Shown here: in pieces, positions 11,404 through 45,823 of the stretch
Numbering within the stretch: position 1 is the stretch's first letter
Layout: each line of letters starts with the position of its first letter
Assembly: GCA_018830485.1 (NCBI GenBank)
Contig: JAHJRQ010000015.1
Span: forward strand, 682,001-746,000
Source of the DNA: Pseudomonadota bacterium
GTDB lineage: Bacteria; Desulfobacterota; Desulfobulbia; Desulfobulbales; Desulfurivibrionaceae
Length of the DNA: 64,000 nt
Direction of reading: 5' to 3'
The notes under the pieces: model-generated
The model's database searches: none
What the model saw: only the letters and a program-made list of their open reading frames with translations
What the model was told of the DNA's origin: nothing
Program-made: the position numbers and the translations under genes

Positions 11404-13329
11404 CTAGAGGGCGGGGCTGAGCACTATCTCCTCCTGGAGATGCATAAGACGATCAATGTCCAGGAGAATGGTCACGCCCTCGGGGAGTTTGGCCATGCCC
11501 AGCAAACACTGACTGTCAACCGTGCTCCCGAATTTCGGGGGATCTTCCACATCCTGTTCCTTGATGCTGACCACCTCGGATACCGAGTCGACAATGATGC
11601 CGATGAGCCGGGAGCCGGTGAGGCCGGAAACCTCCACCACGATGATGCAGGTGCGGGCATCGTATTCCGCGCTTTCCATGCCGAACTTGCTCCGCATATC
11701 CATGACCGGAATGATCTTGTCCCGTAAATTGATGACCCCTTTAAAAAAGGGCGGCATCTGCGGCAGCTCGTGGATGGAGATCAGGCCGATGATCTCCCGG
11801 ACATCGAGGATGCCGAGGCCGTAACGTTCATCGCCCAGGGTGAAGATAAGATACTTGCCTTCTCGGGAGGCAAGGGCCTGATCGATGCCCAGCTTTTTGG
11901 CCGCGCCCCGGGGCGCGCCCTTTTCCTGGCCTGTGCCTGCCGCGCTCGGCAGGTTCTTGCAGGCGATATCGGCAAAGCGGGTGTCGACAAAATCCGCGAG
12001 ATTGATGCGCCGGCCGATCTCCATCTTGCTGGTCATGTAATCCTGGATGGTCTCCAGGTCTTCCTTGACCGGATAGAGGTTGTCCGTGGTGATGCCCTGG
12101 GGGTCGGAAAGCACATTGCGCAGCAGGGCGGGCTCCAGGCCGATTTTCTTTTGCGGATCGAGGAAGTTCACGGCGATTTCCGCTGCCTCGTCGACATGAT
12201 CCCGGATATAGATGCCGGATTCCACCAGCATGGTGGTGAATTCCTGCACCGCCTCCGGGTATTTCTTGAGAATTTCATCCCGGAAAACCACGACGCAGCA
12301 GGGGTGATCCTGCCACACCTCGCTGGAGAGAAACTGCCGCTCGGCAATGCCTGCGGTAATGGCCCGAGAACCGATGGGCTCGGCCACCAGGAAACCGCTT
12401 GCCTCGGCATTGTCCTTTAAAAATTCCGGCATGGCCACCGGCGGCACCACGTCGAAGAGCACGTTGACCGCTTCCTTGCCCACCACCCCGGGACGTAAGC
12501 CCATCTGGGTGAAGTACATGTGGGCCAGCATGTTGTGGACCGACATCTTGTGCGGGATATAGAAGGTCTTGTGCTTGAAGAACTGCTGGTACGGTTTTGC
12601 ATACTTGCCGCTTTTGTTGCGCACGCAGATGCTGCCGTTGCGGTGGGCGAAAAGCACCAGCTTGATGGGCACGCCGTAGCTGAACAGGTCCATGGCCATG
12701 GGGGCCAGGATAAAGGCCCCGTCCACTTCGCTGTTTTCCAGGGCGTTCTGCACCGGGTTCCAGCCCGGCATGCAGAGGGTGTCCAGGCTGAAGTGCTTCG
12801 GAGACTTCCGGCCCGAGGCCACCTGATGCTTGAGCACGCCCAGGGCCAGATGGTCGGTGATCTGGATGTGGGCCATCTTGAGCGTGACCTTGCCCTCGGC
12901 GCTGATCTTGGGTCCTTCCTCTTTTTTGGGGGCTGGGGTCTGCTTGAAGCCGAAAATCTCCTCGATGAGAACCTTGAGCTCGTCCGGGGTAAAGGGCTTG
13001 GCCACCACGCCGTTGGCGCCGGCCTCCTTGGCCTTGGCCACGTAGGCCTTGTCGCCGTGGCCGGTGGCCATAAGAAAGGGGAGGTTCTTGAAACCGTCTT
13101 GCTCGCGCATCCATTGCAGCAGCTGGTAGCCGTCGCAGTTGGGCATGGACCAGTCGCTGATGACCAGGGCAATGCCCGGCTCGGCGCCGAGTTTTTCCTT
13201 GGCGTCGTTGCCGTCCACCGCCTCGACGATGTTGGTGAAGCCGACCTGGCCGAGAATCTTGGCCTCCATCTTGCGCATGGTGCCGGCGTCTTCAACGAGT
13301 AAAATCTTCATCTGCGGATCAAGCGCCAT
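11404..13329 (-). CDS. Triple fusion: receiver - NMT1/NrtA-like solute-binding domain - CheW
   Basis: 641 residues. Residues 1-125 are a CheY-like receiver (LLVEDAGTMRKME, VISDWSMPNCDGYQ, VAKPFTPDEL). A linker rich in Pro and Lys leads to about 290 residues resembling NrtA/SsuA-type periplasmic binding proteins (MAHIQITDHLALGVLKHQV, then GWNPVQNALENSEVDGAFIL). From about 490 to the end there is a CheW domain (FTLGDERYGLGILDVREII, then LPQMPPFFKGVINLRDKIIP). The start has a strong site (GGAGG) and no signal peptide, so the binding-protein domain should be cytoplasmic. In effect it is a CheV (CheW plus receiver) with a ligand-binding module between the two parts. No chemoreceptor or CheA gene lies in the window. 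Confidence 0.85.
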   Translation of the reverse strand: MALDPQMKILLVEDAGTMRKMEAKILGQVGFTNIVEAVDGNDAKEKLGAEPGIALVISDWSMPNCDGYQLLQWMREQDGFKNLPFLMATGHGDKAYVAKAKEAGANGVVAKPFTPDELKVLIEEIFGFKQTPAPKKEEGPKISAEGKVTLKMAHIQITDHLALGVLKHQVASGRKSPKHFSLDTLCMPGWNPVQNALENSEVDGAFILAPMAMDLFSYGVPIKLVLFAHRNGSICVRNKSGKYAKPYQQFFKHKTFYIPHKMSVHNMLAHMYFTQMGLRPGVVGKEAVNVLFDVVPPVAMPEFLKDNAEASGFLVAEPIGSRAITAGIAERQFLSSEVWQDHPCCVVVFRDEILKKYPEAVQEFTTMLVESGIYIRDHVDEAAEIAVNFLDPQKKIGLEPALLRNVLSDPQGITTDNLYPVKEDLETIQDYMTSKMEIGRRINLADFVDTRFADIACKNLPSAAGTGQEKGAPRGAAKKLGIDQALASREGKYLIFTLGDERYGLGILDVREIIGLISIHELPQMPPFFKGVINLRDKIIPVMDMRSKFGMESAEYDARTCIIVVEVSGLTGSRLIGIIVDSVSEVVSIKEQDVEDPPKFGSTVDSQCLLGMAKLPEGVTILLDIDRLMHLQEEIVLSPAL

Positions 13330-39308: not shown

Positions 39309-40163
39309 TTACAGGTGGCAGATCAAAACCGGGCAGTCCGCATAGCCGATAACCCGTTCCGTGACGCTGCCCATGAGCAGGCGGGTCAAGCCTTTCCTGC
39401 CATGGGAGCCCATGACGATGAGGGTGGCGGAGATTTCCGCGGCCAGGTCGGTTATGGCCTGATGGGGATCGCCATCCCGCACGAACAACTCCGCCTGGAC
39501 TCCGAGATCCCTACCCCAGTTGCGGACCTTGTCCAGGACCTTGTCCGCTTCCTGGTAAAGTTCTTTCGCCACCTCCTGGCCAAGGGCGTAAAACTCGTCA
39601 TTGGTGTAGACCACCGAAACGGCGTTGAGTTTGGTTTTCCTTTCCTGGGCTATCTCCAGGGCTCGGGCCAGGGCGTTGTCGCAACAGGTGGAGCCGTCCG
39701 TGGCCAGCAGGATACTCTCCCAGGAGAGCTTGCCGGTTTCCGGAGTCACCAGGACATCCTTGTTCGTGTGTCCGATGACCCGGGCGGTGACGCTGCCGAT
39801 GAGGGCCCGTTCCACCGTGCCCTTGCCCCGGCGGCCCATGATAATCAGATCGCAGTTTTCCTCTTCGGCGACATGGACGATCTGCTCATAGGGTTCTCCC
39901 TGTTCCAGATTGGTCAGGATGTTGACCCCTTCGCGGTCCGCCAGTTGCCGGGCCTCGGCCAGCATTTCCTGGCCGGGTCCGGTGATGGCTTCCTTGATGT
40001 CCGAAACCCCGATGAGCTCCAAGTCCCCCTGGTAGGGGGGGACAACGGCGAGCATCTTGATCCAGCTCTTGTCCTCCCCGGCAAGCCGGCTTGCCAGGGA
40101 GAGCGCGTTTCGAGCTGAGGGAGAACCGTCGTAGGCAACGAGGATCTTCCGGTACTTAGCCAT
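39309..40163 (-). CDS. Tandem universal stress protein (two UspA domains)
   Basis: 284 residues containing two UspA domains. Both nucleotide loops are present: LIIMGRRGKGTVERALIGSVTARVIGH near 130-156 and TLIVMGSHGRKGLTRLLMGS near 252-271. The first domain begins YRKILVAYDGSPSARNAL. The start overlaps the permease stop by eight bases, so it is coupled to that gene, and a strong terminator follows. It is the last gene of the putative sigma-54 operon. Confidence 0.9.
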   Translation of the reverse strand: MAKYRKILVAYDGSPSARNALSLASRLAGEDKSWIKMLAVVPPYQGDLELIGVSDIKEAITGPGQEMLAEARQLADREGVNILTNLEQGEPYEQIVHVAEEENCDLIIMGRRGKGTVERALIGSVTARVIGHTNKDVLVTPETGKLSWESILLATDGSTCCDNALARALEIAQERKTKLNAVSVVYTNDEFYALGQEVAKELYQEADKVLDKVRNWGRDLGVQAELFVRDGDPHQAITDLAAEISATLIVMGSHGRKGLTRLLMGSVTERVIGYADCPVLICHL

Positions 40164-41496
40164 TGCTGACGCCCAGCACCGCTTTCTTGCTTCTGCTGTC
40201 GGCGGTCATGCCTTTGATCATGGCCACGATGATGATGAGCGCCGCGGAACCCAGGGCTGCGACCAGAGACCAGAAGCTGATGCCTTCGAGCAGGGCCAGG
40301 GTGTTTTCCTGTATGGGTCTCATCAGCTCAAGGTCGATCAGGTAGCCGGGGATCTTGACGCCGCGGCTGACTGCGACAATGAGCATGGTGGTGGCCATGA
40401 CCACCTTGATGATGTAATCCTTGACATAGGTGGTTCCCAGGGCGCCGAGCTGTACGCCGATAAGGGAGGTGGCCAAAAGCAGCAGGGCGAGGCGGATATC
40501 GATGAGGCCGGAGAGACCCCACTGCACGGAACCCCAGGCGCCCATGACAAAGGCGATGATCAGTTCGGTGGCGCTGGCCACCACGGCGGAGGCGCCGATT
40601 ACATAGATCATGCCGGGGACGCCGACGAAGCCGCCCACCGCGATGGTGGCTGCGAGCATGCCGGTGAGCAGGCCGACCGGGATGGTGATCCAGGCGGAGA
40701 TGGTCACCTTGGCGGTTTTGAAGTGCATCATGGGCGCGAGCTGGATCTTCTGCATGCGCAGGGCCAGCTTGCTCACGGTTTCCTTGCCGCCGCCGCTGGC
40801 GAGTTTCCAGGCATCAAAAAACACATAGCCGCCGACAAAGACCAGGACCACCATGAACACCGCGCTGATGTAAAGGTTGGAGCCTGCGCCGCCGAACTGG
40901 TTCAGGATGTATTTCTGGATCTTGATCCCGATCTGCACGCCGATGACAGCGGTGACGGCCATGACCAGACCGAGCTTGATGTCGGCCTGGCCGTATTTCC
41001 AGCGCTTGTAGGCGCCGACCATGGCCTTTGGGAACTTGTGGCACATGTTGCTGGCCACGGCCACCGCGCCGGGAACGCCCAGGGACATCATGGCCGGGGT
41101 CATGACAAAGGCGCCGCCGGAGCCGATGAAGCCGGAGAGCAGGCCGCCAACGGCGCCGATAACCAGCAGGGCAATGAGCTTGCTGGCGGTCATGTCCATG
41201 AACATGACGGAGATATCCTTCATCACATTGCCGGCCTCGGCATGTTTATCCAGATTGATCAACACCTTCTGGTTCATGGCGATGTCCTCGGGCTCCATCT
41301 TCTCGTTCAGGGCCAAGGTCACCAATTCCTTGGTGCCGTCTTTTTCAAAAAGAACCGTGCGCTCCGCGCTGTTCACTTCGGTAATAATACCCTTGAGCAT
41401 GTCCTTGGACGGTCCGTCGCCGGCGGCAAGGGCCGAGTGGGCGGACAGGGACAGGGGGAGCAGGGCGAACATGAGTATGAGCAGTAACTTCTTCAT
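40156..41496 (-). CDS. TauE/SafE-family permease with N-terminal periplasmic domain
   Basis: 446 residues. A signal peptide (MKKLLLILMFALLPLSLSAHSALA) precedes a periplasmic domain of about 70 residues (LKGIITEVNSAERTVLFEKD...), then eight or so TM helices. The family core appears in GGLLSGFIGSGGAFVMTPAMMSLGVPG and again in the second half (GMLAATIAVGGFVGVPGMIYVIG). Family members export sulfite or organosulfonates, or carry other anions. The extra soluble domain resembles a small beta-barrel and may bind the substrate or a partner. It is flanked by stress-protein genes in one operon. Confidence 0.85.
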   Translation of the reverse strand: MKKLLLILMFALLPLSLSAHSALAAGDGPSKDMLKGIITEVNSAERTVLFEKDGTKELVTLALNEKMEPEDIAMNQKVLINLDKHAEAGNVMKDISVMFMDMTASKLIALLVIGAVGGLLSGFIGSGGAFVMTPAMMSLGVPGAVAVASNMCHKFPKAMVGAYKRWKYGQADIKLGLVMAVTAVIGVQIGIKIQKYILNQFGGAGSNLYISAVFMVVLVFVGGYVFFDAWKLASGGGKETVSKLALRMQKIQLAPMMHFKTAKVTISAWITIPVGLLTGMLAATIAVGGFVGVPGMIYVIGASAVVASATELIIAFVMGAWGSVQWGLSGLIDIRLALLLLATSLIGVQLGALGTTYVKDYIIKVVMATTMLIVAVSRGVKIPGYLIDLELMRPIQENTLALLEGISFWSLVAALGSAALIIIVAMIKGMTADSRSKKAVLGVSNG

Positions 41497-41535: not shown

Positions 41536-41883
41536 TTATTTTTTTGCTTCAATGCCAAGGGCGCCCAGAAGGTTGCTGGCAAAGGCCCCATGGATAAAGG
41601 AAAAGAAAAAGGCCGCTCCCACCGGATACATCCAGCGCCAGCCGCCCATGGTGAAGATCTCGGTGACCAGCTTTTCGTTGGTGAAGAGCAGGTAATAGGC
41701 GGAAAGCGACATCGTCCCGAAGATGACGGTCTTCAGGTGGGGCTTGCTTTTTGCCGCCGGGGCCGGGGATTTGCCGTGCCGGCGGGTGGCTTTTTCGCCC
41801 AGGATCCGGCGGGCGGTGTCGTGTTCGCCCGCCTCGGCAAAGGCGACAGCCGACATGTTTTTGTCAAAGGTGGTGATGGTCAT
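41536..41883 (-). CDS. FAEA-module small membrane protein
   Basis: 115 residues. It begins with a short helix, NMSAVAFAEAGEHDTARRIL (9-28), which it shares with the two gene products upstream in the same operon. A basic Pro/Ala linker (about 32-49) leads to two probable TM helices (about 52-67 and 85-107). No known family is recognised for the membrane part. It lies between the Usp-like gene and the TauE/SafE permease, so it may be an accessory subunit of the permease. AAGGGAAAAAAG precedes the ATG. Confidence 0.75.
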   Translation of the reverse strand: MTITTFDKNMSAVAFAEAGEHDTARRILGEKATRRHGKSPAPAAKSKPHLKTVIFGTMSLSAYYLLFTNEKLVTEIFTMGGWRWMYPVGAAFFFSFIHGAFASNLLGALGIEAKK

Positions 41884-41920
41884 CTTTTTTCCCTTTTGTG
41901 GTGTGAATGGAGTTGTGAAG

Positions 41921-42448
41921 TCATGCCCTGACGGATGACCCTGCGTACATCACGACAGGGCAGTGCAGGGCCTGAAATTTGGCGATCATGTTTTCTTTAG
42001 CCTTGCGGCATTGTGGGCCGTCCGGTTCCAGCGCATCGAAGACAACGCAGAGGATGTCCCTGCGGGAGCCGGCATGCCGGAGTACTTCGTCGGCCAGGCA
42101 GTCAAGCCCGCTGACCGGTTGATAGAGCACGCCCTTTTCCTGCAAGGCGTGGTTCAGGGCGGCGAGGGGCTCTTTTTCCTGTCCCAAGCCGGAGGCGGTT
42201 TCATTCTCCGGCATGTTCAGCATGTGGAAGATCTCCAGGCCGCCGCCCAGGCGTTGACAGAGATGCAGGGTATAGCTGATGGTTCTTGGGGCGAGTTCCG
42301 GCTTGTCGGTGCCCAGAAGCACCCGTTTGCGCGCATTCTTGTTTGTCTGGAGAAACTGGCGAGCCGTCTCGAACTCGCCGGCCTCGGCAAAGGTCGCCGC
42401 AGTCATGGCTGCTTCAAGTTTTTTGAACATCGTCGTCAGTGCGCTCAT
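41921..42448 (-). CDS. FAEA-module fused to a Usp-like domain
   Basis: 175 residues. The N-terminal helix AMTAATFAEAGEFETARQFL (14-33) matches those of the neighbouring genes. From about 37 on, RVLLGTDKPELAPRTISYTL and LEIFHML resemble the first strands of a universal stress protein. The C-terminal VVMYAG strand fits the same fold, but the Usp ATP loop GX2GX9GS is not visible. The ATG at 42448 is chosen because the in-frame upstream part is low-complexity, basic and overlaps the upstream gene. Second gene of the putative sigma-54 operon. Confidence 0.72.
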   Translation of the reverse strand: MSALTTMFKKLEAAMTAATFAEAGEFETARQFLQTNKNARKRVLLGTDKPELAPRTISYTLHLCQRLGGGLEIFHMLNMPENETASGLGQEKEPLAALNHALQEKGVLYQPVSGLDCLADEVLRHAGSRRDILCVVFDALEPDGPQCRKAKENMIAKFQALHCPVVMYAGSSVRA

Positions 42449-42476
42449 GGTCGTTTCCGGGGAAAGGGTGTTCGGT

Positions 42477-42656
42477 TTAATGGGTTGCCGGGTTCGGCAG
42501 GATCTGGCCGCCGGGTATTTCCGTGGCCTGCGGTGCCGGTTTGCTCGGCGTTGATTTCCTGTTGCCGGCGTATTTTTGCGCCAGTTCGGGTTCGTTGGCT
42601 TCGGCAAAGGTAATGGCTGTCATCAGGCGGTCGATGCGATTCAATATGGTGTTCAT
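42477..42656 (-). CDS. FAEA-module miniprotein
   Basis: 59 residues: MNTILNRIDRL, then MTAITFAEANEPELAQKYAG (12-31), then a Pro/Thr-rich tail with no predicted structure. It is essentially the shared helix on its own. AAGGAGA lies seven bases before the ATG at 42656. It is the first gene after the sigma-54 promoter (42728-42743), with a leader of about 60 bases. Function unknown; a docking or adaptor peptide is a reasonable guess given that two co-transcribed proteins carry the same module. Confidence 0.7.
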   Translation of the reverse strand: MNTILNRIDRLMTAITFAEANEPELAQKYAGNRKSTPSKPAPQATEIPGGQILPNPATH

Positions 42657-42711: not shown

Positions 42712-42913
42712 GTTGCCAGTTGCATTGAGCAACAAGCGTGCCAGGGATGATTTTCGGTTTTTTACGTTTTGTTTCAATATGTTGCGTGCGCTTTGGATTT
42801 TTCAGGAAATGTTTCAGTTATGCAACGTGAAGCTTGGTAAAAAAATAATAATCAATAAAATTAGTTAGATGTGTCGGTGTTGCAATAGGAAAACCAGTGT
42901 TGCCAAATGCAAC
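42712..42913. promoter_or_regulatory. Array of GTTGC/GCAAC half-sites (putative activator sites)
   Basis: GTTGC occurs at 42712, 42719, 42781, 42879 and 42899; GCAAC at 42729, 42822 and 42909. Two full palindromes, GTTGC-N5-GCAAC, lie at 42719-42733 (overlapping the -12 box of the sigma-54 promoter) and 42899-42913 (about 160 bases upstream of it). The second has a further half-site exactly 20 bases away. Chance would give well under one half-site in 200 bases. They are the likely binding sites of the NtrC-type regulator encoded at 44456. Confidence 0.65.
42728..42743 (-). promoter_or_regulatory. Sigma-54 (RpoN) promoter of the FAEA/Usp/TauE operon
   Basis: Minus strand: TGGCACG (42743-42737), four bases, TTGCT (42732-42728). 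This matches the -24/-12 consensus TGGCACG-N4-TTGCA/T. Transcription should begin about 12 bases on, giving a leader of about 60 bases before the start codon at 42656. Confidence 0.85.
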
Positions 42914-43005
42914 CCCTGGACTTTGTTTTTCGCTGGGAGTATTGTGCTCTCGAACAGGAAACCGGCAGGGCGAATCGGCACCCTTGCGGGAAAGGAAGGC
43001 AGATC

Positions 43006-44469
43006 ATGTTCCACCTCGGCATACGCAAGAAGATTACCTACGGTTTTTATCTGCTGCTCCTTCTAATGGTGGGCTCCGCCGTGCTGACCTATGCCCTGGT
43101 CAAGCGCGTGGAAGACCAGGTTGCCTTCAGCGAGGTTATCGAGGATTTTTTCAATACGACCCTTGAGCTGCGCAGGTTCGAGAAGAATTATTTTCTCTAC
43201 CGGCAGGCGAAGGATTTCCAGGAAAACCAGTTGTATTGGGGACAAATCAGGGACATCTATGAAAATAACGCGGCGGCCCTGCATCAGGTGGTCTCCTTGC
43301 CGGAGACCCAGCAGTTGGCGCGGGTGATCGATGCGTATAACAGGCACATGGGGCAGCTCCATGCCTATTACCAGCAGATTGCCCAAGGGGCGGACTACGC
43401 GGCCAGCGGCCACACCCAGGAAAAGCTGGAGGAGCAACTCCGTTCCACCGGGAAAGAGCTCACCGAGTTCGGCGAAAAAACCCGGAGTGCCGTAAAGCGG
43501 AAAATCACGACCCTCCTGAAAACGACCCAGAAGATTCTCCTTGCCTCCATGCTCTGTCTGTTTGTTTCCGCCCTCACCATTGCCGCCCTGCTGGGAAGGA
43601 AGGTGGTGAATTCCCTGAAGATTCTTGAAGGATATACCAAAAAGATTTCCCAGGGGGATTTCGTGGATGTCGCGGTGGGGGAAGGGGAGGAGGAGATCCG
43701 ATCATTGCTCAGGGCCTTCAACCGGATGACCAGGGAATTGCAGATGCGGCAGCATCAATTGGTGCAATCGGAAAAACTGGCGGCGCTCGGCACCCTACTC
43801 TCCGGAGTGGCCCACGAGCTGAACAATCCTCTGTCCAACATCTCCACTTCGGCCCAGATTCTGGGGGAGGAGATCGACGAGGACAATGTGGAGTTCAAGA
43901 AGAGTTTGATAGGCCAGATCGAGATGCAGTCGGACAAGGCGCGCGATATCGTCCGTACCCTGCTGGAGTTTTCGCGGATCAAGGAATTCAAAAAGGAGCA
44001 GCTGTTCTTCAAAAAGCTGGTGGATGAAACCATCCTCCTCCTCCGCGGGCACGTTCCCGGCGAAGTGGTTATCGGAGTGGACGTTCCGGAGGATCTTTCC
44101 ATTGTCGTTGACAAGCAGCGCATGCAGCAGGTTCTGCTCAATCTGATCAAGAACGGGATCGATGCGATGCAGGGCAGCGGGCATATCTGGATTTCCGCCC
44201 TTGGCACCGGGTGCGGCACCGGGCTGGATGAGGTGGAAATCATCATCGAGGACGACGGGCCCGGGATCGATGCGGAACATGTCAACAGGATCTTTGACCC
44301 GTTTTTCACCACCAAGGACGTGGGCAAGGGCTCCGGCCTGGGATTGTTCATTGTGCATGACATCATCGAGTGGCATGGCGGGTCCATCAGCGTGGACAGC
44401 AGGCCAGGGCTCGGCACTACTTTCATTATCTGGCTACCGGGAGAGCAACAGGAACATGGTCACGAATGA
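43006..44469 (+). CDS. Membrane sensor histidine kinase (partner of the NtrC-type regulator)
   Basis: 487 residues. TM1 at about 10-31 is followed by a helical extracytoplasmic domain to about 175 (LELRRFEKNYFLYRQAKDF, as in helical-bundle sensors). TM2 lies at about 177-197, then HAMP (NSLKILEGYTKKISQGDF), HisKA with GTLLSGVAHELNNPLSNI and HATPase (NLIKNGIDAM, DDGPGIDAEH, GSGLGLFIVHD). AAGGAAGG precedes the ATG at 43006; the in-frame extension to 42907 runs over the regulatory palindrome and is unlikely. It overlaps the regulator gene by 14 bases. The stimulus is unknown. Confidence 0.9.
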   Translation: MFHLGIRKKITYGFYLLLLLMVGSAVLTYALVKRVEDQVAFSEVIEDFFNTTLELRRFEKNYFLYRQAKDFQENQLYWGQIRDIYENNAAALHQVVSLPETQQLARVIDAYNRHMGQLHAYYQQIAQGADYAASGHTQEKLEEQLRSTGKELTEFGEKTRSAVKRKITTLLKTTQKILLASMLCLFVSALTIAALLGRKVVNSLKILEGYTKKISQGDFVDVAVGEGEEEIRSLLRAFNRMTRELQMRQHQLVQSEKLAALGTLLSGVAHELNNPLSNISTSAQILGEEIDEDNVEFKKSLIGQIEMQSDKARDIVRTLLEFSRIKEFKKEQLFFKKLVDETILLLRGHVPGEVVIGVDVPEDLSIVVDKQRMQQVLLNLIKNGIDAMQGSGHIWISALGTGCGTGLDEVEIIIEDDGPGIDAEHVNRIFDPFFTTKDVGKGSGLGLFIVHDIIEWHGGSISVDSRPGLGTTFIIWLPGEQQEHGHE

Positions 44470-45823
44470 CGAACCCACAAGGATCTTGGTCGTTGACGAC
44501 GAAGAGATTGCCTTGAACAACCTCAAGCATGTTTTGAAGAAAGAGGGGTACGAGGTCACCGCCTCACAGAGCGGTCCCCGGGCCCTGTATCTGCTGGAGG
44601 AGAACATGTTTGACCTGGTCCTGACCGATTTGAAGATGGAAAAGGTCGGGGGGATGCAGATCCTGAAACGCACCAGGGAGCTGTATCCGGACACCGAGGT
44701 GATCATGATCACCGGGTACGCCACGGTGGATTCGGCCATTGAGGCGATGAAGGGCGGGGCGTACCATTATATTGCCAAGCCCTACAAGCTGGACGAGGTC
44801 CGGAAGGTTGTGCGGGAAGCCCTGGAGAAAACCAGGCTCAAACGGGAAAACTCCAGGTTGCGGGAGCATCTCAAGGCGTTCCAGGGAGATGCCCGCATCA
44901 TCACCGATAACTCCGGGATGAAAAAATTGCTGGCCACGGCCGGCCAGGTTGCCACCTCGGACAGCAACGTGGTGATCTGCGGGGAGTCAGGCACCGGCAA
45001 GGAGCTGCTGGCCCAATTTGTTCATAGTTGCAGCAACCGCCGTAACGGGCCTCTGCTTTCCGTGAATTGCGGGGCTTTCCAGGAAGATCTGTTGGCCAAT
45101 GAGCTCTTCGGGCACGAGAAAGGGGCGTTTACCGGGGCGGTGGAAATGAAGAAGGGCTTGGTGGAGATGGCCGATGGCGGCACCCTTTTTCTCGATGAGA
45201 TCACCGAGATGTCTCCGGCCATGCAGGTGAAGCTCCTCCGGGTGATCCAGGAAAAAGAGGTGATGCATCTCGGCGGGGTTTCACCGATCAAGGTCAATGT
45301 CCGCTTTCTTGCGGCAACCAACCGGAACCTCCAGGAGGAGGTAAAACTGGGGCATTTCCGGCAGGATCTGTTTTTCCGGATCAATGTGGTGGCACTCCAT
45401 ATCCCGCCCCTGGCCGAGCGCAAGGATGACCTGCCTCTGCTGATCCAGCATTTTATCCGAAAATACGGGGTGTTGATGCACAAGGAGGTGCGCAATATCG
45501 AGCCGGAGGTGGTGGATATTCTGCTGCGCTACGATTTTCCGGGCAATGTCCGGGAGCTGGAAAACATCATCGAGCGGGGGGTGGCGCTGGCCAGCGGCGA
45601 CACCATTGAGGTCGGCCACCTGCCGGAAGATCTGCGCGACGCTTCGTTTCATACCTTCCGCCGGAAAAGCGGCGGCATCCCCAGCCTTGCCGATCAGGAA
45701 CGGGCCTATATCGAGTGGGTGTTGAAGGAGCACGGGGACAACAAGAGCCTGGCCGCCCAGGTTCTGGGCATTGACCGGGTTTCCCTCTGGCGCAAGATCA
45801 AGAAGTACGAACTTGAGGCCTGA
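44456..45823 (+). CDS. NtrC-type sigma-54-dependent response regulator
   Basis: 455 residues. Receiver (RILVVDDEEIAL, VLTDLKMEKVGG, YIAKPYKLDE), AAA+ domain with Walker A GESGTGKE, the sigma-54 contact loop GAFTGA, Walker B GGTLFLDEITEM and the R-finger region, then a Fis-type HTH (NKSLAAQVLGIDRVSLWRKIKKY). It activates sigma-54 RNA polymerase. Its most likely target is the divergent operon, whose control region has a consensus sigma-54 promoter and paired palindromes. The ATG at 44456 lies inside the end of the kinase gene, so the two are translated together. Confidence 0.93.
   Translation: MVTNDEPTRILVVDDEEIALNNLKHVLKKEGYEVTASQSGPRALYLLEENMFDLVLTDLKMEKVGGMQILKRTRELYPDTEVIMITGYATVDSAIEAMKGGAYHYIAKPYKLDEVRKVVREALEKTRLKRENSRLREHLKAFQGDARIITDNSGMKKLLATAGQVATSDSNVVICGESGTGKELLAQFVHSCSNRRNGPLLSVNCGAFQEDLLANELFGHEKGAFTGAVEMKKGLVEMADGGTLFLDEITEMSPAMQVKLLRVIQEKEVMHLGGVSPIKVNVRFLAATNRNLQEEVKLGHFRQDLFFRINVVALHIPPLAERKDDLPLLIQHFIRKYGVLMHKEVRNIEPEVVDILLRYDFPGNVRELENIIERGVALASGDTIEVGHLPEDLRDASFHTFRRKSGGIPSLADQERAYIEWVLKEHGDNKSLAAQVLGIDRVSLWRKIKKYELEA

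Follow-up and report, generated by a model that had tools for sequence, protein, structure and literature searches.

Three adjacent genes on the minus strand of the analysed window (the whole stretch of 64,000 nucleotides) encode a mini-protein, a protein with a domain like that of the universal stress proteins (Usp) and a protein with two hydrophobic segments, and all three are headed by the same module of about 25 residues, predicted to form a helix-turn-helix hairpin, which recurs in the Desulfobacterota in operons with anion transporters and σ54 regulators. The three genes (P0001, P0002 and P0003, Table 1) lie exactly where the original prediction had placed them, and its central claim holds, namely that next to a TauE permease one common segment heads three proteins whose bodies differ, as a profile finds all three copies; P0001 contains indeed little beyond the segment. 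The module might be a single TPR-like hairpin that acts as an intermolecular assembly tag, building a complex of Usp and receiver proteins that regulates the transporter, and the chances that this reading is right are considered to be about even.

Table 1. Features of the module operon and of the divergent two-component genes, in positions of the window.
Feature	Position	Strand	Remarks
σ54 (-24/-12) promoter, TGGCACGCTTGTTGCT	42728..42743	-	12/12 consensus positions; about 72 nt 5' of the start of the first gene
P0001, mini-protein of 59 aa, barely exceeding the module	42477..42656	-	leave-order-out profile E = 1.2e-9
Hairpin module of P0001, LNRIDRLMTAITFAEANEPELAQKYAGN	42561..42644	-	
P0002, 175 aa, N-terminal module and divergent Usp domain without ATP signature	41921..42448	-	
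Hairpin module of P0002, FKKLEAAMTAATFAEAGEFETARQFLQT	42344..42427	-	profile E = 1.7e-12; helices in the AlphaFold model
P0003, 115 aa, N-terminal module and two hydrophobic segments	41536..41883	-	
Hairpin module of P0003, ITTFDKNMSAVAFAEAGEHDTARRILGE	41794..41877	-	profile E = 2.7e-12
P0004, TauE/SafE (TSUP) permease, 446 aa, with N-terminal extension	40156..41496	-	PF01925 E = 1.1e-34
P0005, tandem universal stress protein, nucleotide signature in both domains	39309..40163	-	PF00582 E = 4.9e-63
Divergent sensor histidine kinase (HAMP, HisKA, HATPase)	42907..44469	+	true start may lie downstream
NtrC-type σ54 response regulator (receiver, AAA+, Fis HTH)	44456..45823	+	

The genes on the minus strand are very likely co-transcribed, since the spacers between P0001 and P0002, P0002 and P0003, and P0003 and the TauE gene are 28, 37 and 39 nt respectively, and the TauE gene overlaps the tandem-Usp gene. 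P0002 starts with the ATG at 42448 and there is no need for a longer frame starting with TTG. The permease passes the PF01925 cut-off of 32.6 with 120.6 bits, NCBIfam assigns no family to P0001, P0002 or P0003, and mini-, module-Usp and module-TM proteins as a whole give only weak Usp or TPR scores and otherwise fit no named family. Homologues of P0003 are found at L109:9275-9616, L215:7592-8287 and L204:7764-8198. Elsewhere in the window (11404-13329, minus strand) there is a protein of 641 aa with an unusual mix of a receiver, an NMT1-type substrate-binding domain and a CheW domain.

The likeness of the three segments is not due to chance, because a profile trained on 95 segments, all from outside the order of the window, finds them with the E-values of Table 1 in a search of the 755 ORFs of the window and locus L005. 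No other ORF of the window is matched, significant matches elsewhere are confined to a second module cluster of this genome, and the rest have E > 10. The module starts a few residues 5' of the internal Met noted earlier (FKKLEAAMTAATFAEAGEFETARQFLQ in P0002). The 2.9-Mb genome has six occurrences of a DNA pattern for FAEA[x]E, namely five in coding sequence, three of them in the window and two in the second cluster, both clusters adjoining a TauE gene, and one in antisense, which is due to chance. The coding copies differ in their codons, indicating that the module is conserved at the protein level. The three copies of the window are all N-terminal and in adjacent genes, as would be expected of a chance likeness or of a translational leader conserved at the DNA level, but such an origin is rejected as next to impossible by E-values of 1e-9 to 1e-12, by C-terminal copies on receivers and by the synonymous codon differences.

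In total 178 distinct copies of the module were gathered, nearly all from Desulfobacterota, and the consensus of 110 of these is K-x-K-[LIF]-E-D-x-[MF]-x-A-[AVI]-[TA]-F-A-E-A-G-E-[FH]-[ED]-T-A-[RK]-E-[IL]-[LM]. With the F of FAE set to 0, residues A-3, A1, E2 and A9 are present in at least 93% of the 110 copies, and F0 and G4 in 87%. The module is present in 21 of the 27 genomes of the family of the window (E up to 0.1), in 34 of 297 genomes sampled over the phylum (E up to 0.01) and in 64 of 150 genomes of the order around G299 (E up to 0.01). Metagenome-assembled genomes with module loci are labelled Desulfovibrionaceae, Desulfobulbaceae, Syntrophaceae and Desulfobacteraceae, and also Latescibacterota and Nitrospirae, of which the last two are possibly mis-binned. 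The module is found alone in mini-proteins, at the N-terminus of Usp-like and two-TM proteins and at the C-terminus of response-regulator receivers, being terminal in most of the proteins that carry it, and up to five copies may follow each other in one chain; the original picture of a single N-terminal segment was thus too narrow. The mini-proteins of L072, L080, L086, L097, L105 and L106 have strongly basic C-terminal tails, several of which end with R-x-R-x-Y-[KR]-[ST], and the mini-protein of the window has no such tail.

The shared segment could also be a relic of the duplication and fusion of one small gene within the operon, with no common function at present. Copies on unlike protein classes are slightly more identical within the same operon (0.403) than across operons (0.378), as such a relic would have it, but the most alike are copies of the same class in different operons (0.418), the class labels beating 1000 of 1000 shuffles, indicating that the module classes are old and separate. 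The core residues are moreover retained in 87–100% of the 110 copies over the whole phylum, which makes a relic very improbable. A search of the PDB sequences with the module profile gave one match only, with E = 0.51 and judged to be due to chance, and no description of the shared module was found in the literature, including the papers on the Desulfovibrio vulgaris operons (PMC3333781, PMC10102598), so that the module looks undescribed.

The AlphaFold model of P0002 (20 aligned sequences, mean pLDDT 83) has helices at residues 2–22 and 26–37 followed by an alpha/beta domain, and the module is predicted to be a helix-turn-helix hairpin with a TPR-like register. In this model the segment is folded and not disordered, as would be needed for a docking role, but it is a hairpin of two helices and not the single helix first proposed. 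The resemblance to TPR (Pfam TPR_4 and TPR_6) consists of a helix-turn-helix of equal length, small residues that match TPR positions 8 and 20, a Gly at position 15 and the spacing of tandem copies, which is most often 34 residues (12 of 37 spacings). TPR_6 and TPR_4 also recur as sub-threshold Pfam matches over the module in a fitting register. In contrast to TPR, the module is mostly a single isolated copy, the spacing varies between 31 and 53, and no TPR profile reaches the Pfam cut-off at the module, the best match having E 0.0077 and 17.2 bits against a cut-off of 27. A model of a double-module protein has two stacked hairpins at low confidence, and the TPR matches of this model are non-significant. 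Because of the sub-threshold scores, the low confidence of the double-module model and matches that are sporadic across the wider module set, the module is called TPR-like and not TPR. A protein of L121 has three copies of the module, and five tandem modules are found in proteins of 210–238 aa at L216:8402-9034 and L217:8616-9332, where the adjacent receivers are without a module.

The body of P0002 matches the Pfam Usp family with E = 0.0068, which falls short of the cut-off, and 14 of 20 P0002 homologues match PF00582 (E up to 1). Its AlphaFold model has the Usp fold, with a VIA-align Z of 11.9 to UspA (3s3t) over 125 residues at an rmsd of 3.2, in rows that span residues 38–175 only and are thus uninformative on the hairpin, and the best Foldseek match is TeaD with E 1.1e-5. 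Judged from the model, this is a Usp domain that has diverged. The ATP-binding subgroup of Usp proteins is marked by the nucleotide signature G-2x-G-9x-G(S/T), which is absent from all 23 module-Usp proteins, P0002 included, as expected if these bodies have a structural or partner role. P0005 carries the signature twice, as GRRGKGTVERALIGS and GSHGRKGLTRLLMGS.

The second cluster of the genome is located about 56 kb away (L005:7490-8805) and encodes a 97-aa protein with two module copies and two receivers, one degenerate and one genuine, which both have a C-terminal module. Downstream of these come a dCache histidine kinase, a receiver and a further TauE permease. Double-module proteins such as L005:8512-8805 have an additional C-terminal motif, approximately FLE-x-x-GL-x-G-[VI]-x-x-x-YG. 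Two types of operon recur. Type A, to which the window belongs, contains a mini-protein, a module-Usp protein, sometimes a module protein with two TM segments, a transporter and a Usp, with a histidine kinase and a σ54 response regulator nearby. Type B contains a σ54 activator, a dCache histidine kinase, a receiver, a 220-aa HATPase protein, TauE and one or two receivers with a C-terminal module, and often also a double-module protein of about 97 aa.

For a comparison of the gene context 63 clusters were hand-picked among the matches of the genome searches, and since some near relatives are included the fractions are descriptive only. The module is not widespread in unrelated single genes with no operon link: an anion transporter, either TauE/TSUP or DASS/CitMHS-TrkA_C, lies no more than 8 kb away in 58 of the 63 clusters, 56 have a σ54 activator, and a histidine kinase is found in 58. 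Among 59 control loci, which are related receivers without the module from a receiver-type alignment scan biased to type B operons, TauE is found in 5 and either transporter in 18. σ54 promoters with at least 11 of 12 consensus positions precede 17 of 69 clusters, of both operon types, versus 0.43% of random stretches. TauE is present in 44 of the 63 clusters, so the association with this permease stands as a recurrent one, but it is not specific, as DASS/CitMHS-TrkA_C takes its place in others. Several type A clusters have a DASS-type transporter next to their module genes, and the constant partner class is therefore the anion transporter and not TauE.

The strongest argument for an assembly tag is the exchange of Usp domains (type A) for receivers (type B) on one and the same module, beside transporters of one class, as it indicates that the module serves as wiring and the bodies as readers of signals. 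In addition, a Usp protein that modulates a transporter is known in TeaD, and operons of this type in D. vulgaris have chlorate and molybdate phenotypes (PMC10102598). Further support comes from the prevalent spacing of 34 residues, the arrays of five copies, the sub-threshold TPR matches, the lack of the ATP signature in the module-Usp bodies, the confidently predicted hairpin of P0002, the presence of at least two module copies in 43 of the 63 clusters (at least two module proteins in 39), the conservation at the protein level over the phylum, the unrelated bodies, and the context of transporters and σ54 regulation. As one hairpin by itself is too short for a stable solenoid, the hairpins on different products of an operon would stack onto one another, or each onto its own kind, to form a short composite solenoid. 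The stacked hairpins would gather the regulatory bodies, namely Usp domains without the signature in type A and receivers in type B; the complex of the window would also take in the two-TM protein P0003. It may then adjust the anion permease after the two-component system has sensed an anion or general stress, and P0005 with its intact nucleotide motif could supply a nucleotide signal, in the way that TeaD modulates TeaABC. The full arrangement, a split solenoid in which hairpins on several operon proteins co-assemble and thereby plug Usp or phospho-receiver readers onto anion transporters of unrelated families, is possible but rather doubtful. If the hairpins do stack between chains, they would provide a simple, swappable wiring for the regulation of transporters. 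Recruitment of a soluble protein to the membrane, which had been suggested from the window, does not hold as a general role, for few clusters have a membrane-anchored version.

The main rival of the assembly tag is a common partner without a module: the modules might all bind, for example, the histidine kinase, a cytoplasmic face of the permease or the HATPase protein of 220 aa, so that the tagged proteins dock there in turn. In 20 of the 63 clusters only a single module is detectable, and the hairpin must therefore sometimes bind itself or another partner; some Desulfovibrio-like genomes (G238, G299) have one copy in total, and their operons retain histidine kinases and TauE, as docking to a third partner would predict. 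The multi-copy clusters and the tandem arrays are, on the other hand, superfluous for a simple docking peptide, and the module is kept whether the permease is of the TauE or the DASS family, which leaves this alternative unlikely.

The hairpin could also be a recognition tag for a protease, that is a degron or adaptor site, mainly for a Lon protein with an inserted receiver (receiver-Lon), by which the tagged proteins would be cleared once the stress ends. A receiver-Lon is encoded within 8 kb of 23 of the 41 type A clusters, the tag is terminal in most proteins, and in D. vulgaris the receiver-Lon acts with the histidine kinase and the response regulator as judged by cofitness (PMC10102598). 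Such a Lon degron is less likely, however, since only one of the 22 type B clusters has a receiver-Lon nearby and the genome of the window has none, its three Lon proteins being ordinary ones, about 800 aa long and with no receiver inserted; in addition the module is predicted to be folded, and a degron would hardly come in arrays of up to five copies. We therefore regard it as improbable.

The type of operon is already known, together with phenotypes (stress, chlorate, molybdate) and a regulator, while the shared module was not found described, so that the earlier statement that no such system had been described applies to the module and not to the operon, which is known genetically in D. vulgaris. 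There, DVU3303-3305 (receiver-Lon, histidine kinase and σ54 response regulator) regulate DVU3302-3298, which encode membrane and hypothetical proteins, some of them with UspA domains (PMC3333781), and the transporter DVU3299 is important under chlorate, the DVU3303-3305 trio being cofit (PMC10102598). The operon of the window has the layout of this "three-component general stress" locus (DVU3298-3305), with σ54 response regulator and histidine kinase genes divergent to an operon of Usp, hypothetical, membrane and anion transporter genes with a σ54 promoter, but it is without the receiver-Lon as third component and has an extra module-TM protein. Locus L208 combines the DVU3298-3305 gene order with a module-bearing mini-protein, and the rubredoxin of its genus is 90% identical to that of D. 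vulgaris. DVU0539-0545, which responds to molybdate, encodes two Usp proteins, a transporter and a 133-aa TM protein (PMC10102598), and by its published description also resembles the window in having a histidine kinase and a response regulator divergent to these genes; its transporter is, however, assigned to the PSE family (TC 2.A.98) and not to TSUP, and the gene order is unlike that of the window. At L204 a module-TM protein of a size near that of the 133-aa protein is located beside TauE. What such Desulfovibrio transporters carry is, according to PMC4641369, not known. The third system of interest is TeaD (PDB 3hgm), a Usp protein that modulates the TRAP transporter TeaABC (PMC9006882); like P0002 it has the Usp fold and is encoded with a transporter, but TeaD binds ATP and has no hairpin module, whereas P0002 is without the nucleotide signature.

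The module links mini-, Usp- and TM proteins that are otherwise without a family, and it predicts which gene products form a complex, a prediction that is directly testable since mutant fitness data exist for such operons in D. vulgaris. It is of relevance for sulfate reducers, in which it is still uncertain which proteins deal with sulfate and with toxic oxyanions such as chlorate and molybdate.

Some further observations were made in the neighbourhood of the clusters. The Lon protein of L086:9619-11637, and of many other type A neighbourhoods, has a receiver between the N-terminal part and the AAA domain and is thus of the DVU3303 type. The receiver of the response regulator in the genome of the window is 49% identical to the receiver inserted in receiver-Lon, which would fit a single kinase driving both. 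At L236 (G000:C13, about 189.0–190.8 kb), and also at L237, the TSUP gene is split into two in-frame halves, which in L236 are located at 2-1438 and 1460-1849 and encode a long periplasmic-type domain with the first half of the permease and a 129-aa second half, respectively. The same single TAA inside the match is found in about ten genomes of several genera.
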